A DNA stretch of 44,520 bases from Terriglobales bacterium. Its GTDB lineage: Bacteria; Acidobacteriota; Terriglobia; Terriglobales; Acidobacteriaceae. The number at the start of each line of letters is the position of its first letter. Positions within the stretch are counted from its first letter, which is position 1. The stretch spans positions 1 through 44,520 of the forward strand of contig DASPRM010000074.1 in assembly GCA_035624455.1 (NCBI GenBank), in the 5' to 3' direction. Below the pieces are notes generated by a model that saw only the letters and a program-made list of their open reading frames with translations, was not told where the DNA came from and made no database searches. Of this stretch, positions 35,604 to 44,520 are shown piece after piece. The position numbers and the translations under genes were made by a program.

Positions 35604-36521
35604 ATGGACCTCTTCCAACTGGAAACCTTTCTAACTGTAGCCCGCGAAGGCAGCTTCTCCCGCGCCGCCAAGAAGCTTTACCGCACCCAGCCCGCGGTCA
35701 GCCAGGCGGTGCGCAAGCTGGAAGAAGAGCTGGGCGAGCCCCTGTTTGACCGCTCCTCCCGGGAAGGGATTCTGACCGCTTCGGGGAAGGTGTTGGAGAA
35801 CTATGCCGAGAAGCTGCTCAATATGCGGGGCGAGGCGCTCAATGCTCTGGAAGAACTCCGGCAGCTCAATAAAGGGAAGCTCTCCATCGCCGCCAACGAG
35901 CTCACCTGCCTTTACCTGCTGCCGATACTCAACGAATTTCGCCGTCTTTCTCCCATGATCAAAGTGACGATCCAGCGCTCGCTGGCCAGTCAAATTCCCG
36001 ACGACCTGCTGAACCACAATGCTGAACTCGGGGTGCTCACCTTCAAGCCCGAAGATTCGCTGCTGAAGTCCATTGTGGTTTATCGGGACGAGCTGTGCTT
36101 CGTGGTTCCTCCCAACCATCCGCTGGCGACCAGCTCAGAAGTCCATATCGGACAGCTCGGATCGGAGTACTTCGTTGCCCATCACGTGAATTCTCCCTAT
36201 CGCGAGAAGGTATTGGAGACCTTCCAACGCAAAAAAGTTCCTCTTCACATGGATATCGAGCTGCCTACCACCGAAGCGATCAAGAAATTCGTCGCCATGG
36301 GAAATGGTGTGGCTCTCGTGCCCAGTATCTGTGTGGAAGCCGAGGTGGCTCGAGGCGAGCTGGTGCGGGTTGCTGTTTCGGAGCTTGCCTTCGAGCGCAG
36401 GCTGCGGCTTGTGTATCGCAAGGGTGCCAGCCTCTCTCACGCGGCGCAGGCCTTTCTCAAAGTCGCCGAGACGTATGCGCAGCGCGAAGGCGGCAGGTAC
36501 TTATATCAGGCAGAAAAATAG
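35604..36521 (+). CDS. LysR-type regulator, probable branched-chain amino acid operon regulator
   Basis: A 305-aa protein. An N-terminal winged helix (FQLETFLTVAREGSFSRAAKKL, AVSQAVRKLEEELG) precedes a periplasmic-binding-protein-like co-inducer domain (about 90-295). It has the family's usual length and needs no alternative start; AAGGA lies before the ATG. It is transcribed away from leuA across an inverted-repeat region whose motif recurs before ilvD. This suggests that it regulates leuABCD, ilvDBNC and itself, as IlvY does for ilvC in enterobacteria, but it is not clearly an IlvY orthologue. The ligand is unknown; a pathway intermediate would be the natural guess. Confidence 0.9.
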   Translation: MDLFQLETFLTVAREGSFSRAAKKLYRTQPAVSQAVRKLEEELGEPLFDRSSREGILTASGKVLENYAEKLLNMRGEALNALEELRQLNKGKLSIAANELTCLYLLPILNEFRRLSPMIKVTIQRSLASQIPDDLLNHNAELGVLTFKPEDSLLKSIVVYRDELCFVVPPNHPLATSSEVHIGQLGSEYFVAHHVNSPYREKVLETFQRKKVPLHMDIELPTTEAIKKFVAMGNGVALVPSICVEAEVARGELVRVAVSELAFERRLRLVYRKGASLSHAAQAFLKVAETYAQREGGRYLYQAEK

Positions 36522-37763: not shown

Positions 37764-38840
<1,077 letters not shown>

Positions 38841-38990: not shown

Positions 38991-39545
38991 CTACACCGAA
39001 TAGGCCACGTCCTCGCCGCCGTCTTCATACACCGTGGAAGTCGTCGCGCTGATGCCGCCCCCCGCATTCTTGCTGCCGCGGGACATGGCTACCCTCCCGG
39101 TGCGCACCATCTCCAGCACACCGTAAGGGCGCAGAACCTCCAGCAGGCCATCGATCTTATCCTCAGTGCCGGTAATCTCGACGATGATGGACTCGGGCGC
39201 AACATCCACCACCCGAGCGCGAAACACGTGTGCCAACTGCAGGATATGCGAGCGATTCTCTCCGGTCGTCTGCACCTTGATCATCGCCAGATCGCGCTTC
39301 ACCGCAGCGGCCGCGCTGATGTCCTCTACTAAGAGCACGTTCACCAGCTTATAGAGGTTGGCTTGCAGGCGAAACGCGCCACCTTCATCGGTATCCACGA
39401 CGATGGTCATGCGCGAGACACCTTCCTTTTCGGTGTGCCCCACCGTCAGCGACTCGATGTTATACGCGCGTCGGCGGAACAGGGACGACACGCGGTTCAA
39501 CACGCCGGGTTTGTTTTCTACGTACACCACGAATGTATGCAACAT
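38991..39545 (-). CDS. ilvN: Acetolactate synthase small (regulatory) subunit
   Basis: A 184-aa protein. The N-terminal ACT domain begins HTFVVYVENKPGVLNRVSSLFRRR, followed by the AHAS small-subunit C-terminal domain (SIIVEITGTEDKIDGLLEVLRPYG). It starts at ATG 39545 after AGAGGA, 8 bp past the ilvB stop; a longer open frame reaching into ilvB is not protein-like. It activates the large subunit and confers valine inhibition. The C-terminal tail of about 20 residues is Gly/Ser-rich and not conserved. Confidence 0.96.
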   Translation of the reverse strand: MLHTFVVYVENKPGVLNRVSSLFRRRAYNIESLTVGHTEKEGVSRMTIVVDTDEGGAFRLQANLYKLVNVLLVEDISAAAAVKRDLAMIKVQTTGENRSHILQLAHVFRARVVDVAPESIIVEITGTEDKIDGLLEVLRPYGVLEMVRTGRVAMSRGSKNAGGGISATTSTVYEDGGEDVAYSV

Positions 39546-39553
39546 AGGTCCTC

Positions 39554-41263
39554 TTACTCGTCCGATCCTGTTTCCCAGATAGGCGCGGGCCGGCGGATCA
39601 TGGCGTGCAGGTCGGCTCCCGCCGGCACCATGGGATACACCGAATCTTCCTGCTCCACGCGGAAGTCGATCAGCGCCGCCGCTGGATGCTGCCGAGTCTC
39701 CTGCACCGTGGGGATCACGTCTTTGCGCTCGCTCACCGTGAAAGAGCGAATGCCGTAAGCATCCGCCAGTTTCGCGAAGTCGGGATTCAACAGCGGCGTG
39801 GCGGCGTAGCGCTTTTCGTAGAAAAATTCCTGCCACTGGCGCACCATGCCGAGGAAGCCATTGTTGATGATGGCGATTTTGACGTCGATCTTCTCCTGCG
39901 CGATCGTAGCCAGCTCGGCCATGGTCATCTGGAAACCGCCATCGCCCACCACCACCCAGACCTCAGCGTCGGGCCGCGCGAACTTGGCTCCGATTGCGGC
40001 GGGAAGTGCGAATCCCATCGTGCCCAGTCCACCCGAGGTAATCAAAGATCGCGGTTGATCGTGGTGGTAATACTGCGCTTCCCACATCTGGTGCTGGCCT
40101 ACATCGGTGACCACCAGGGCCCGGCCCTTGGTCTCGCGCCAAAGATCGTTGATGACGTGCGCTGCGTAAAGATGCCCGCTGTCTGGCAGGTTCTGTATGT
40201 CGCGCACCGCCGAATCGCCCTTCAGCTCGCGAATGTGGCTGAGCCACTCGGAGCGGTCGCGGGTTTCAATGCGCGGCAGCAGCTCCTGCAGCACTTCGCC
40301 CAGATCGCCCAGCAACGCGATGTCCACCTTTACATTCTTGTTGATTTCCGCCGGATCGATCTCTACGTGAATCTTTTTGGCCGTGGGCGCATAAGTCTTC
40401 AGGTTGCCGGTCACGCGGTCGTCGAAGCGCATGCCGAACGCCAGCAGCAGGTCGGCCTCCTGGATCGCGTGATTCACCCACGCTTCTCCGTGCATGCCCA
40501 TCATGCCGAGGTTTAGGGGATGCCCAGCCGGAACACCGCCGATTCCCAGCAGGGTCATGGCAATGGGGATGTGCGCTTTTTCAGCAAAATCCTTCACCAG
40601 ACGAGTCGCGCCGGAGAGAATGACTCCGTGGCCAGCCAGGATCACCGGGCGCTGCGCGCTGTTGATCATCGCCACCGCTTTCTCGTAATCCTCGGCGGCG
40701 GGTGAAAGGTCAGGGCGATACCCGGGCAGCTGTGGCTTGGCCGCCTCCCAATCGAACTTGCAACTGCCCTGCTGGGCATCTTTCGTTATGTCGATCAACA
40801 CTGGACCCGGCCGCCCCGACTGCGCGATGTAGAACGCTTCGCGGATCGTCCGCGCAATGTCTTCCGCATGTGTCACCAGGTAATTGTGCTTGGTGATCGG
40901 CAGGGTCACGCCGGTGATGTCGGTTTCCTGGAAGGCATCGGAGCCAATCAGCTTGCTCCCCACCTGCCCCGTGATGCAGACGATCGGCGAGGAATCCAGC
41001 ATTGCCGTGGCAATGCCGGTAACCATGTTGGTGGCGCCAGGGCCGGAAGTTGCAATCGCAACGCCCACGCCGCCTCCTGCGCGCGCAAAGCCATCGGCCA
41101 TGTGCGTCGCGCCCTGTTCGTGGCGCACCAGGACATGGTGAATGTCATATTTCGTCAGCGCATCATAGGTTGGCAGGATTGCGCCACCGGGATAGCCGAA
41201 TACATGCCGCACACCCTCGCGCAGGAGGCATTCCCAAACAATTTCCGCACCTGTCTTGATCAT
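39554..41263 (-). CDS. ilvB: Acetolactate synthase large (catalytic) subunit
   Basis: A 569-aa ThDP enzyme. The catalytic glutamate is E49 (LVRHEQGATHMADG), and the ThDP-Mg motif is GDGGFQMTMAELATIAQ to NNG. FAD-domain motifs such as GMRFDDRVTGNL mark it as AHAS rather than another ThDP decarboxylase. It condenses pyruvate with pyruvate or 2-ketobutyrate. It overlaps ilvD by four bases (ATGA), indicating coupled translation. Confidence 0.96.
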   Translation of the reverse strand: MIKTGAEIVWECLLREGVRHVFGYPGGAILPTYDALTKYDIHHVLVRHEQGATHMADGFARAGGGVGVAIATSGPGATNMVTGIATAMLDSSPIVCITGQVGSKLIGSDAFQETDITGVTLPITKHNYLVTHAEDIARTIREAFYIAQSGRPGPVLIDITKDAQQGSCKFDWEAAKPQLPGYRPDLSPAAEDYEKAVAMINSAQRPVILAGHGVILSGATRLVKDFAEKAHIPIAMTLLGIGGVPAGHPLNLGMMGMHGEAWVNHAIQEADLLLAFGMRFDDRVTGNLKTYAPTAKKIHVEIDPAEINKNVKVDIALLGDLGEVLQELLPRIETRDRSEWLSHIRELKGDSAVRDIQNLPDSGHLYAAHVINDLWRETKGRALVVTDVGQHQMWEAQYYHHDQPRSLITSGGLGTMGFALPAAIGAKFARPDAEVWVVVGDGGFQMTMAELATIAQEKIDVKIAIINNGFLGMVRQWQEFFYEKRYAATPLLNPDFAKLADAYGIRSFTVSERKDVIPTVQETRQHPAAALIDFRVEQEDSVYPMVPAGADLHAMIRRPAPIWETGSDE

Positions 41264-43002
41264 CGGTACCTTCCTACTGCTTCTTGCTGAATTTTTGTCA
41301 CCGTTTCAGTCCCGGCACGCGCACTCCAATCCGAAGTTGTGGCGCCGTGCGATGCGGACGACACCATCACTGCGTATTTACCCATGACTCCGGTGGGATA
41401 GCGCAGTGCAGGCTGCTTCCAAGCGGACAGCCTCGACTTCAGTTCTGCATCGCTCAGCTCAACCTGCAATTTTCGTGTCGGAATATCGATCTCGATGATG
41501 TCGCCGTCGCGGACGGCGGCAATCGGCCCGCCATAGGCCGCTTCGGGAGCCACATGTCCCGCCATGAACCCATGGGTCGCTCCGGAGAAGCGCCCGTCGG
41601 TGAGCAGAGCTACAGATTCTCCTAGCCCTGCGCCAGTAATCGCCGCTGTTACCGCGAGCATCTCGCGCATTCCCGGACCACCGCGCGGGCCTTCGTAGCG
41701 GATAACCACTACATCGCCAGCCTTGATCTCGCCCGCCTGGACCGAAGCGAACGCCAGGTCCTCGTTGTCGAAAACCCGTGCCGGGCCGCGATGATGCTGG
41801 ATCTCATGCCCGGCGATCTTCATCACGCAGCCATCGGGCGACAGGTTCCCCTTCAGGATTACCAGGCCGCCGTTCGGCTTGATCGGATTGGAAATCGGAC
41901 GGACCACTTCTTGCCCCGGCGCTTCTACTGCCTGGTCGGCTTCCGCGGCCATGGTCTTTCCGCTGACTGTCAGACAATCGCCATTGAGCCGCCCGGCCTG
42001 TTGCAAGCGCTGCGCCAGAAGGCGCGCTCCACCTGCGTGGTACATGTCGGTAGCCATGAAGCGGCCTCCGGGTTTCAGGTCGGCCAGCAAGGGTACGCGC
42101 GCGCTGATGCGATCGAAGTCATCGATATCGAGCTCAATCCCCAGTTCGCTCGCAATGGCAAGGAGGTGCAGAACGGCATTGGTGGATCCCCCGCTGGCGG
42201 CCACACTGGCGATGGCGTTCTCAATCGCCTCGCGCGTGATGATCTGAGAAGGGCGAATATCGCGGCGGAACAGCTCCATCACCATCGCTCCCGCTTCCCC
42301 CCCTACATCTTTCTTATGGCCGTCGAGGGCGGGAACGTCATTGGCCCCCATCGGCGAGATTCCCAGGAATTCGCAGACCGTCGCCATCGTGTTGGCTGTG
42401 AATTGTCCGCCGCAGGCGCCGGCCCCGGGACAGGCGTGATTCTCCAGATCAGCGAGCTCGGCATCAGTCATGCGCCCACGAGCGTGAGCGCCGACCGCTT
42501 CAAAAACATCCTGGATGGAAACATCGTGCCCCTGGAATCGTCCCGGAGCGATCGAGCCGCCATAGAGCATCAGCCCCGGAATATCCAGGCGGCACAGCGC
42601 CATCACCGTTCCCGGGATCGTTTTGTCGCAGCCTGAAAGCGCTACCAGTCCATCGAACAGGTTGCCGCGAGCCACCAACTCGATCGAGTCTGCGATCACC
42701 TCACGGCTTATCAGCGAAGTCTTCATCCCCTCGCTGCCCATAGTGATCCCGTCGGAGATCGAAACCGTGTTGAACTCCATCGGCGTGCCACCTGCCCGCC
42801 GTATGCCTTCCTTCACAGCAGCCCCAAGTTCACGCAGGTGGTAGTTGCACGGTCCCACCTCGATCCAGGTGTTGGCCACGCCGATGATCGGCCGACGGAG
42901 GTCTTCATCGGTGAAGCCTACGGCTTTGAACATGGCCCGGGCAGGCGCCCGGTTTGGCCCCTCGGTGATGGCAGCGCTTCGCCGCTTCGCTTCGTTTGCC
43001 AT
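41260..43002 (-). CDS. ilvD: Dihydroxy-acid dehydratase
   Basis: A 580-aa protein. Cluster cysteines are C52 (GPCNYH), C125 (SGCDKT) and C197 (GACGGQFTANTM). The three-Cys arrangement is that of DHAD; whether it holds [2Fe-2S] or [4Fe-4S] cannot be read from this alone. It makes the 2-keto acids for valine and isoleucine. It is first in ilvDBNC and is preceded by the leader ORF and attenuator (43038-43204) and by the operator shared with leuA. Confidence 0.96.
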   Translation of the reverse strand: MANEAKRRSAAITEGPNRAPARAMFKAVGFTDEDLRRPIIGVANTWIEVGPCNYHLRELGAAVKEGIRRAGGTPMEFNTVSISDGITMGSEGMKTSLISREVIADSIELVARGNLFDGLVALSGCDKTIPGTVMALCRLDIPGLMLYGGSIAPGRFQGHDVSIQDVFEAVGAHARGRMTDAELADLENHACPGAGACGGQFTANTMATVCEFLGISPMGANDVPALDGHKKDVGGEAGAMVMELFRRDIRPSQIITREAIENAIASVAASGGSTNAVLHLLAIASELGIELDIDDFDRISARVPLLADLKPGGRFMATDMYHAGGARLLAQRLQQAGRLNGDCLTVSGKTMAAEADQAVEAPGQEVVRPISNPIKPNGGLVILKGNLSPDGCVMKIAGHEIQHHRGPARVFDNEDLAFASVQAGEIKAGDVVVIRYEGPRGGPGMREMLAVTAAITGAGLGESVALLTDGRFSGATHGFMAGHVAPEAAYGGPIAAVRDGDIIEIDIPTRKLQVELSDAELKSRLSAWKQPALRYPTGVMGKYAVMVSSASHGATTSDWSARAGTETVTKIQQEAVGRYR

Positions 43003-43037
43003 TTCCGGACACCCCTGGGATCGATTTCCGCGATCAA

Positions 43038-43071
43038 ATTAAAAAGCCATCATCCTCAGCGAATGATGGCT
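43038..43071 (-). terminator. Attenuator terminator before ilvD
   Basis: On the minus strand AGCCATCAT (43071-43063) pairs perfectly with ATGATGGCT (43053-43045) around nine bases and is followed by TTTTTAATTT. It lies 36 bp before the ilvD ATG, where a terminator would block the operon. Its left arm also forms part of a competing antiterminator with 43091-43102. Confidence 0.8.
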
Positions 43072-43132
43072 CGGGAAACTTTGTTCTATTCCGGCCTCAT
43101 CCGCTGCCGACTCCAATGGATACTCGAAGGCC
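43063..43132 (-). promoter_or_regulatory. Pause hairpin and antiterminator of the ilv attenuator
   Basis: Segment 1 (GGCCTT, 43132-43127) can pair with GAGGCC of segment 2 (43098-43093). Segment 2 as GGATGAGGCCGG (43102-43091) can instead pair with CCGAGCCATCATTC (43074-43061), giving 12 pairs (one G-U) with two bulged A. This second pairing removes the left arm of the terminator. The leader stop codon lies inside segment 2, so a ribosome finishing the leader would block the antiterminator, whereas one stalled on Val/Leu codons in segment 1 would allow it. Pairings were worked out by eye, not folded. Confidence 0.7.
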
Positions 43133-43204
43133 CACGAGGGGCAGTCGTACCCCTACCCGCGCAAAACCTGCGCTGATGAGTCCGACTGTGCTCTCCATTG
43201 CCAT
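43097..43204 (-). CDS. ilv leader peptide (attenuation)
   Basis: A 35-codon ORF that starts at ATG 43204 with GGAG seven bases upstream and ends at TGA 43097-43099. It contains six Val, four Leu and two Ile (12 of 35), concentrated in the second half (ARVGVRLPLVGLRVSIGVGSG). It precedes a terminator and ilvD, as in the ilv leader of enterobacteria. Its sequence has no resemblance to known leader peptides beyond composition. Its job would be to sense charged Val/Leu/Ile tRNA. Confidence 0.75.
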   Translation of the reverse strand: MAMESTVGLISAGFARVGVRLPLVGLRVSIGVGSG

Positions 43205-43274
43205 GAGTCATCTCCGGCAGCGAGCCGGAAAGAATGTGTGCGTGCAGGTAAGCATACGCCGAATTAGCGATAAG

Positions 43275-43324
43275 GCAAGCTTATAGTTTATTGGGCGAGC
43301 ATAATCGGAACTGATCGTATAAGC
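43275..43324 (-). promoter_or_regulatory. Proposed LysR operator and ilvD promoter
   Basis: GCAAGCTTATAGTT (43275), GCATAA (43299) and TATAAGC (43318) match the leuA/LysR site (35518, 35541, 35560) with one extra base between the first two boxes. On the minus strand TATAAG (43285-43280) could be the -10, giving a leader of about 270 nt that contains the attenuator. The same orientation to the gene is kept at both sites. It lies about 40 bp past the end of the broken hicA. Confidence 0.65.
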
Positions 43325-43364
43325 AGGGCTTTGACGAGGATGATTTCTGGCGTCAGATGGGTCC

Positions 43365-43579
43365 TTATAGGTCTTCCGGTTTTAGGCCGGTGTATTTCCC
43401 GATTTTCCTGAGTGCCACCGGCCCCAGCCTTCCGAATCGTGCCAGGCCCAGGTGTAATCGGGAAATCCTTCTTTTTGGAGTTGGACGTGAGATCCCTTCT
43501 TCTCCGTTTTGGGCCGCCATCCAATCCGCAGAAGCGCCCGATATACCCGGCTCGCCTTGGTGCTCGGCCACTCACTCAC
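43365..43579 (-). pseudogene. hicA: HicA-type toxin, broken by a frameshift
   Basis: The frame from GTG 43579 encodes a HicA-like start (TKASRVYRALLRIGW, then KKGSHVQL with the catalytic His) but runs off after WHDSEG to a stop at 43382. The next frame carries the missing end, LGPVALRKIGKYTGLKPEDL. One extra base near 43427-43432 (giving SEELGPVALRKIGK) would restore a 71-aa protein of normal HicA length. HicA cuts mRNA. Its start overlaps the hicB stop (GTGA). It is either a true 1-base deletion or a sequence error. Confidence 0.72.
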
Positions 43580-43803
43580 AAGAATTGGATTGACTTGGGA
43601 GGCTTTCTAACTTGCTCAGTTCGATCGGCAATTACCCGCAACGCTAGTGCAGTGACTGCCACCTCGGCGCCTTGCTTAGTCTTTCCGTATGCCATGACGC
43701 CGGGAAACTGGGGGATTTCCGCCAACCAGCGGCCGTCAACCTCTTTGTCAAACACAATACGGAACGATTCGCCGCCCTCCGGAGGGATTGGGACAGTGGC
43801 CAT
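43576..43803 (-). CDS. hicB: HicB-type antitoxin
   Basis: A 75-aa protein. FDKEVDGRWLAEIPQFPGVMAYGKTKQGAEVAVTALAL is the partial RNase H-like fold of HicB antitoxins. No separate DNA-binding domain is present, so it is a short form. GGAGG lies just before the ATG. It precedes and overlaps hicA, an order known in some hicBA loci. With hicA broken it may be a relic. Confidence 0.8.
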   Translation of the reverse strand: MATVPIPPEGGESFRIVFDKEVDGRWLAEIPQFPGVMAYGKTKQGAEVAVTALALRVIADRTEQVRKPPKSIQFL

Positions 43804-43959
43804 GACACCTCCACGATGGTAAGCCGTCGCGGAGATCGTTTTGGAACACCAGATGTGATGTCAATTTGATTGCCGTTACCTGGGAATAGAAGTGATGCGA
43901 CTTACCTGTGTCGGCCTCCCTTGCGGTAACTCCCAATCAGCGGTATAAGCGGGGACTCG

Positions 43960-44520
43960 ATGCCAAAGGTTACCCTGTTCATCCCCTGCTTCGTCGATCA
44001 GCTTGCGCCCCAGGTAGGCATCGACATGGTCGAGGTGCTTCGCCGAATCGGGTGCGATCTTTACTTTCCGGTTGAGCAGACCTGCTGTGGGCAGCCCGCC
44101 TTCAATTCCGGATTCTGGGACGAAGCTCGCCCCATCGCCGAACGTTTTGTTCGGATTTTCGAGAATGCAGAGACTATCGTCTGCCCGTCAGGCTCCTGCA
44201 CTACTATGGTGCGGAATTTCTATCGCGACCTGCTGGCAGACAGTCCGCTGCGTGAGCCCGCGGCTGCTCTGGCCAAACGGGTATTCGAGTTCTCCGAATA
44301 CCTGGTCAAAGTCGCAGGCATAGAAGATGTTGGAGCGGAATTTCCGCATCGCGTGACGCTGCACGAAACCTGCCACGCGCTACGCGAATTGCATATAAAA
44401 GTAGAACCCCGAAAGCTCCTATCCAGAGTCCGCGGTCTGGAACTGGTAGAGATGCCGTACGCGGAGGAATGTTGCGGTTTCGGTGGCGCCTTTGCCGTCA
44501 AGTTCGGCATGATTTCAGCC
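43960..44520 (+). CDS. lutA: LutA/LldE-like Fe-S (CCG domain) protein, partial
   Basis: The first 187 residues are present; the gene continues past the window. Two CCG repeats are visible: EQTCCGQPAFNSG (C42, C43) and EECCGFGGAFAVKF (C171, C172), with LHETCHALREL (C138) between. This is the pattern of the lactate utilisation protein LutA (YkgE/LldE), which with LutB and LutC oxidises L-lactate. Related CCG proteins serve glycolate oxidase and heterodisulfide reductase. lutB/lutC would be expected downstream, outside this window. It is divergent from hicB, 156 bp away. Confidence 0.88.
   Translation, partial: MPKVTLFIPCFVDQLAPQVGIDMVEVLRRIGCDLYFPVEQTCCGQPAFNSGFWDEARPIAERFVRIFENAETIVCPSGSCTTMVRNFYRDLLADSPLREPAAALAKRVFEFSEYLVKVAGIEDVGAEFPHRVTLHETCHALRELHIKVEPRKLLSRVRGLELVEMPYAEECCGFGGAFAVKFGMISA

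Follow-up and report, generated by a model that had tools for sequence, protein, structure and literature searches.

The window, as we call the whole stretch of 44,520 nucleotides analysed here, very probably carries a ribosome-mediated transcription attenuator of an ilvD-ilvB-ilvN-ilvC operon that senses charged Val, Leu and Ile tRNA, and its core is, judged by sequence, one copy of an Acidobacteriota family in which the leader codons match the operon behind. This reading is based on the parts themselves, their conservation and covariation, the matching and the position of leader codons and the predicted folds, from which we infer promoter use, translation, stalling, termination and induction at the window. 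An earlier note had interpreted the region as an attenuator before ilvD, an interpretation now supported by leaders that are kept among relatives, stems that covary and a fold that switches.

Organisation of the ilvD upstream region

The features of the region and of the operon behind it are the following, in the direction of transcription.

43251 to 43278, minus strand: candidate promoter, TTGCCT (43278-43273), 16 nt, TATGCT (43256-43251), read from the sequence
43212 to 43215, minus strand: GGAG, candidate ribosome site of the leader, 7 nt before the ATG
43097 to 43204, minus strand: leader ORF MAMESTVGLISAGFARVGVRLPLVGLRVSIGVGSG, 35 codons, ATG at 43204, stop TGA at 43099-43097
43095 to 43106, minus strand: antiterminator 5' arm CAGCGGATGAGG, containing the leader stop, from pairing, covariation and folding
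43057 to 43068, minus strand: antiterminator 3' arm CATCATTCGCTG, overlapping the terminator 5' arm and loop, from pairing and covariation
43044 to 43072, minus strand: terminator hairpin of 12 pairs with a 5-nt loop, from hairpin search, covariation and shuffles
43036 to 43045, minus strand: T-run TTTTTAATTT after the terminator stem, read from the sequence
41260 to 43002, minus strand: ilvD, dihydroxy-acid dehydratase (NCBIfam TIGR00110 above cut-off)
39554 to 41263, minus strand: ilvB, acetolactate synthase large subunit (NCBIfam TIGR00118 above cut-off)
38991 to 39836, minus strand: ORF with ilvN, acetolactate synthase small subunit, at residues 101-254 (Pfam ALS_ss_C and ACT)
37764 to 38801, minus strand: ilvC, ketol-acid reductoisomerase (NCBIfam TIGR00465 above cut-off)

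The operon behind the attenuator is thus ilvD-ilvB-ilvN-ilvC, with the true start of ilvN further in than the start of the ORF that contains it. Just upstream of the ilv promoter lie a HicB-like ORF (43576-43803) and then a HicA-like ORF (43382-43579) on the minus strand, both with Pfam scores below the gathering cut-off, and a LysR gene (35604-36521) is found near the ilv operon.

As the earlier note had claimed, the leader is an ORF of 35 codons at 43204-43097 with 12 codons for Val, Leu or Ile (six Val, four Leu and two Ile), and it does have a candidate ribosome site of its own in the GGAG at 43215-43212. Judged by its sequence, this is a short translatable ORF with codons for the amino acids that the operon makes. 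Its composition alone is weak evidence (P = 0.057 for at least 12 of 34 codons against a background of 22.2% Ile, Leu and Val in four genes of the window), and its last 20 codons hold nine Val, Leu or Ile codons (P = 0.020).

A strict promoter scan of positions 41000-44520 found no sigma-70-like site. A sigma-70-like promoter with a score of at least 11 of 14 is present at 45 of 90 loci, to which the window does not belong (22 of 450 shuffles reach this score). The TATAA-next-to-TTG element of its promoter region is common to 11 other ilvD loci; at 12 of the 29 ilvD loci (L001, L035, L037, L039, L040, L074, L096, L104, L106, L109, L146 and L162), a TATAA or TATTAA stretch, possibly a regulator site, abuts a TTGAC-like box on its upstream side. 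By eye, the arrangement also occurs at L004, L007, L008 and L094, all of which are without the attenuator. A ribosome-site-like 4-mer precedes only 20 of 90 leaders. In ten of the 45 promoter-bearing loci (L106, L109, L120, L127, L132, L135, L137, L153, L159 and L212), the -10 box ends 7-12 nt before the leader ATG, so that the leader peptide may be translated from a leaderless mRNA there.

A hairpin of at least 11 perfect pairs with a T-run arose in only one of 1,000 dinucleotide shuffles of the 358-nt gap, which places the window terminator beyond chance. Read from the sequence, this putative intrinsic terminator precedes ilvD, the first structural gene; the T-run agrees with what the earlier note had described, and the stem has 12 pairs and a 5-nt loop instead of the 9 bp given there. 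The antiterminator, which that note had put at 12 pairs, does include the leader stop and pairs at 11 of 12 positions (CAGCGGATGAGG versus CATCATTCGCTG), with a folding energy of -23.3 kcal/mol for its segment and -17.8 for the terminator. A pause or protector hairpin over the leader end, usual though not universal in such attenuators and proposed in the earlier note, could not be established: in the window, the antiterminator arm pairs with leader RNA upstream of it at 0.49, no better than with shuffled leaders (0.56), and across 98 loci slightly better than the control (0.67 against 0.61, with 62 of the 98 above control).

The strength of this terminator, the weak composition of the leader taken alone and the HicA/HicB-like pair upstream on the same strand would all fit an ordinary intrinsic terminator for transcription arriving from further upstream, such as that of the hicBA-like pair, with the ORF and the complementary arm there by chance. 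We give this explanation a very low probability, since the antiterminator covaries and the core is found repeatedly in front of amino-acid operons, with leader codons to match each operon (see below).

Predicted folding with a ribosome on the leader

By the attenuation mechanism that we propose, a ribosome with ample amino acids would reach the leader stop and cover the antiterminator 5' arm that contains it, which would leave the shared arm for the terminator and end transcription before ilvD. When charged Val, Leu or Ile tRNA is short, the ribosome would instead stall about seven or more codons upstream of the stop, the free 5' arm would capture the shared arm ahead of the synthesis of the terminator 3' arm, and RNA polymerase would read on into ilvD.

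We folded the window under a ribosome model in which, by assumption, the RNA is blocked up to 12 nt past the first base of the A-site codon, and it switched as predicted in this comparison of a blocked with a free stop region, a check that the earlier note had proposed. A ribosome at the stop gives the terminator a probability of 1.00; with stalls at codons -7 to -15, that of the antiterminator is 0.76 to 0.83, except for 0.57 at -8, and the switch falls between codons -6 and -7. Stalls further upstream give mixed results, with the antiterminator at 0.15 at -16 and 0.17 at -17, where the terminator wins again, and at 0.81-0.82 at -19 to -21. The fold without a ribosome leans toward the terminator (0.74 versus 0.22 for the antiterminator), so that an untranslated leader would not be kept open. 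In these predicted folds, the antiterminator is exclusive with the terminator and governed by the position of the ribosome.

When 86 loci are folded at full length, a ribosome at the stop makes the terminator the favoured structure in 82. A stall anywhere from -7 to -12 leaves the terminator favoured at equilibrium in 70 to 76 loci and the antiterminator in only 10 to 16, where we had expected the antiterminator in most relatives; this counts against a thermodynamic switch. Since equilibrium folding of most relatives favours the terminator despite the stall, the switch must be kinetic, decided by the order of synthesis. For transcripts of 86 loci that end in the terminator loop, predicted pairing with the leader-stop arm rises from 0.02 for a ribosome at the stop to 0.55 for one at -5 and 0.72 for one at -8, and the value at -8 drops to 0.33 once the letters of the arm are shuffled. 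Attenuation is generally held to depend on the order of synthesis.

Conservation and covariation of the core

The same core with other leaders stands at 19 further ilvD loci. Leader peptides vary between groups (for example MFSLLLRVAVVVGTVGVVTPAASG and MTDQRNSVSIIIRLVRVAVGVSIVGTRTQIGG; those of L031, L040, L074 and L082 are close kin) and the core is alignable throughout, so that relatives keep a leader ORF with Val, Leu and Ile codons as its peptide sequence changes, the outcome that the earlier note had hoped for from a comparison of related genomes. The distribution of the attenuator is patchy: the nearest genomes, with the window counted in, contributed 30 ilvD loci, of which five have the core. 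Among 80 named ilvD loci, 17 bear an acidobacterial title and 15 of these have it (absent from L032 and L094), a fraction that is no phylum-wide estimate because the named loci were ordered by how closely their ilvD resembles that of the window. The remaining 63 named loci gave no match to the core at E ≤ 0.01 (best E 0.039 for 50 of them).

A script for terminators with antiterminators gave many chance matches on the first 110 loci, and a covariance model was therefore built from the 20 ilvD cores with the terminator as its sole structure. At E ≤ 0.001, it matches 55 of 396 genomes of the phylum and 34 of 150 genomes of the window's own family, two draws that overlap. It also matches five of 118 and four of 118 genomes of two other phyla, where none of nine matches has a fitting leader, which implies that a few per cent of genomes yield false matches at this threshold in this phylum as well. 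The 17 genomes behind non-acidobacterial loci gave no match. Within its own genome, the window is the sole convincing copy, and the next place has an E of 0.57.

Both stems covary, as a check proposed in the earlier note had asked. Across the 20 ilvD cores, 95.0% of terminator cells are paired and five pairs have changed on both sides (shuffled mean 1.4; one of 500 shuffles as high), and the antiterminator has 86.0% of its cells paired and six such pairs (shuffled mean 1.7; none of 500 as high), though these loci had been chosen by eye for leader and hairpin with the arm visible, which biases the counts towards structures. With partners slid by one to three columns, pairing reaches at most 61.2% for the terminator and 56.0% for the antiterminator. 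The number of further pair types in the terminator of these cores is unexceptional (reached by 87 of 500 shuffles).

A second test on 99 cores aligned by MAFFT gave 94.5% paired cells for the terminator and 84.9% for the antiterminator (slid versions at most 60.7% and 54.0%), with 103 and 50 double-change cells, respectively, counts that are inflated by kinship among the sequences and that none of 300 shuffles equalled for either stem. Single positions illustrate how the three strands change together: one triple of antiterminator, shared and terminator base is T/A/T in 50 sequences and C/G/C in seven, and another is A/T/A in 43 and G/C/G in seven.

Leader-peptide control can also take other routes, and a switch that acts on ilvD translation or via Rho instead of an intrinsic terminator would be one of them. 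What is conserved here is a hairpin with a T-run whose distance to the gene varies from 8 to 263 nt among ilvD loci, and we regard this alternative to transcription attenuation as highly improbable.

Operons behind the core and codons of their leaders

The core is not confined to ilvD. Based on BLAST clusters of the genes behind it and NCBIfam or Pfam checks of representatives, 99 loci could be classed, of which 29 precede ilvD, 21 ilvB or ilvN, 16 thrA, lysC or hom, nine ilvA, eight cimA, seven leuA, four cys genes, four pheA and one a DAHP synthase gene. The framing of the earlier note as an ilv attenuator therefore holds for ilvD and is too narrow for the core, which serves several amino acids. 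Representatives passed the curated cut-off for cimA, ilvB, ilvN, pheA, ilvA and leuA as well as for aspartate kinase, homoserine dehydrogenase, DAHP synthase and the siroheme synthase N-terminal domain. Among the cys loci, the cysteine-synthase-like L180 is below its cut-offs and L177 clusters with it; L167, with redoxin-like matches only, was assigned to this class from its leader and not from its gene.

The 83 places L111-L140 and L145-L197 comprise four repeats (L111, equal to L082; L116; L121, equal to L109; and L125, taken as the L148 stretch at another contig end), 58 loci classed by gene and 21 unclassed ones (L112-L115, L119, L126, L128, L129, L150, L164, L168, L175, L182, L184, L186, L187, L189 and L194-L197), of which L182, L186, L187, L189 and L194-L197, all below 35 bits, appear to be spurious. 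Because the core is nearly palindromic it also gives antisense reflections, which were left out of the counts. The leuA loci came from the search of the window's own family and not from that of the 396 genomes; in the own-family search, the repeats L198, L203, L214, L216, L218 and L224 and weak rows without a locus, except L225 and L226, were left out, and L219 and L223 are unclassed.

Several unclassed loci have the core in other surroundings. L113, L128 and L129 combine it with a branched-chain-rich leader before LysR-type regulator genes, and at L168 and L184, where the leader is rich in Leu and Ile, the genes behind are a cupin-like ORF and a member of a menaquinone-biosynthesis family (PF02621), which belong to no obvious amino-acid operon. 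It precedes glutamate synthase (gltB-like) at L115 and L164 and MFS transporters at L114 and L175, in neither case with a discernible amino acid in the leader. At L112, L119, L126 and L150, what follows the core and its Leu/Ile/Val-rich leader is a small ORF (73 to 99 codons); Pfam scans of those behind L119 and L150 gave no match.

Leader codons follow the operon, with Thr before thrA, Cys before cys genes, Ile before cimA and ilvA and Val before ilvD and ilvB. We counted codons by one rule for all classes, at the 97 of 99 loci with an open register (all but L188 and L215): any stop within the antiterminator zone was allowed, the 20 codons leading up to it were scored, and of the possible registers the one with the highest count was used. 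Thr reaches 5.00 in thrA/hom leaders versus 1.47, Cys 6.50 in cys leaders versus 0.56, Leu 5.71 in leuA leaders versus 1.80, Ile 4.50 in cimA and ilvA leaders versus 1.94 and Val 4.28 in ilvD and ilvB/N leaders versus 1.62, each equalled in none of 20,000 label permutations. Removal of the circular L167 leaves the outcome unchanged (Cys 6.33 versus 0.56, n = 3). After related leader ends had been collapsed to 60 groups, the permutation counts out of 20,000 were 0 for Thr, 6 for Cys (n = 2), 37 for Ile and 1 for Val; Leu before leuA was no longer distinguished (3.00 versus 1.80; 6266 of 20,000), with a single leuA group left, so that the leuA case represents one lineage.

The Phe expected in pheA leaders shows no enrichment (0.50 versus 0.42). 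At L230 (G322:C9:53500-57400; the same place as L137), the operon is pheA-ilvB-ilvN with a Val-rich leader before pheA, which fits there given the ilvB and ilvN genes behind; L179 is another pheA-like locus, outside this explanation. The DAHP synthase locus L188 has an aromatic-looking leader and, being without an open register, was left out of the tests.

The position of these codons agrees with the folds. At the 86 usual-register loci, the cognate share is 39 of 430 for codons -1 to -5, 370 of 857 for codons -6 to -15 and 237 of 891 for codons -16 to -26; the two remaining frames give 56 of 860, 160 of 1720 and 199 of 1880 over these stretches. The core dictates the final two or three leader codons, codons -4 to -6 are freer with a cognate share that is still low (0.16 to 0.20), and cognate codons begin about seven codons before the stop, where folding places the switch.

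When the register is picked by its number of cognate codons, 79 of 98 loci have the usual stop at its end and nine have a stop five bases further on. Six of these nine are ilvD and thrA leaders of family f38 (G098, G306 and G330), in which the arm GGATGATG is read ATG ATG TAG; the seventh f38 locus, L118, has the usual register. An arm that is read in another frame with the leader kept indicates that the RNA is preserved whatever its frame. That ilvD and thrA leaders of f38 share so unusual a register (six of seven loci versus three of 91 elsewhere) may mean that the element was copied from one operon to another, or else that the lineage has this habit. It is also a pointer to a broader proposal, for and against which the chances seem to us evenly split, that Acidobacteriota use one standard attenuator cassette, its sequence conserved throughout the phylum and copied between operons, with only the leader codons exchanged so as to set the amino acid sensed (Val/Leu/Ile, Leu, Ile, Thr or Cys).

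The core sequence is conserved beyond the needs of pairing alone, as might be expected of a riboswitch, a T-box or a protein-binding RNA with an incidental leader ORF. Searches of Rfam 15 gave no match at gathering for the window, none at E up to 10 for positions 42950-43350 and only tRNA for nine relatives. Moreover, it is the leader codons and not the core that change with the operon, and f38 keeps its leader even as it reads the same arm in another frame, so that we give such an RNA hardly any chance of being the true explanation.

Relation to known attenuators

The earlier note had recognised the classical enterobacterial ilv layout here, which was not borne out; its view of the source as an acidobacterium fits. 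Like the window, Escherichia coli ilvL (ilvXGMEDA) has a branched-chain leader before ilv genes and a terminator with a T-run; unlike in the acidobacterial core, 14 of its 15 Ile/Leu/Val codons lie at -13 to -29, and a search for a comparable arm at the ilvL stop found none. The geometry is matched by E. coli thrL, whose antiterminator arm is made up, as in the acidobacterial core, of the final leader codons including the stop: GGTGCGGGCT, which lies at -9 from the stop and has the stop codon at its end, matches the reverse complement of AGCCCGCACC from the terminator exactly. Folds of thrL give the antiterminator 0.00 at codons 0 to -5, 0.59 at -6, 0.90 at -7 and 1.00 at -8, a predicted switch between codons -5 and -7 like that of the core, and its Thr/Ile codons begin at -6 and extend upstream. 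Like thrL, the leaders of several acidobacterial thrA loci are rich in Thr, whereas the stem sequence differs and the acidobacterial core is common to several operons. This shared geometry marks the mechanism as one of a known kind, ordinary ribosome-mediated attenuation.

Other branched-chain leaders are known before ilvB. According to Narunsky et al. 2023 (PMC10272879), the ilvB-II, ilvB-OMG and Leptospira ilvB motifs have uORFs rich in branched-chain codons, in which they resemble the window; attenuation is proposed for them, with reporter data for ilvB-II. The 41 ilvB-OMG members come from 'various bacterial phyla', and the text of the paper has no word beginning with acidobacteri; the acidobacterial core may be related to ilvB-OMG. 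According to the abstract of Seliverstov et al. 2005 (PMC1262725), Actinobacteria have leader peptides and terminators before ilvB, classical attenuators before trp and cys leader peptides; they are another phylum, and this abstract mentions no cross-operon core. The relevant passage of PMC8528874 concerns a TAT leader. Korolev 2016 (PMC4833913) covers leader genes at short distance, Acidobacteria included. Our literature searches listed nothing about amino-acid leader attenuators in Acidobacteria, and neither there nor in passages of Naville and Gautheret 2010 did we find this family described; Lopatovskaya et al. 2010 may list some. The new part is the wide use of attenuation on one sequence-conserved core in Acidobacteriota.

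For the soil bacterium of the window, the leader probably serves as a decoy ORF that lets it switch on its branched-chain genes only when Val, Leu or Ile is short. Across the phylum, which has few cultured members, one RNA core predicts how several amino-acid pathways may be regulated, and it provides about a hundred natural variants of a common switch with differing leader codons. It also suggests a rule for annotation, by which an overlooked small ORF together with the core names the amino acid to which the operon likely answers.
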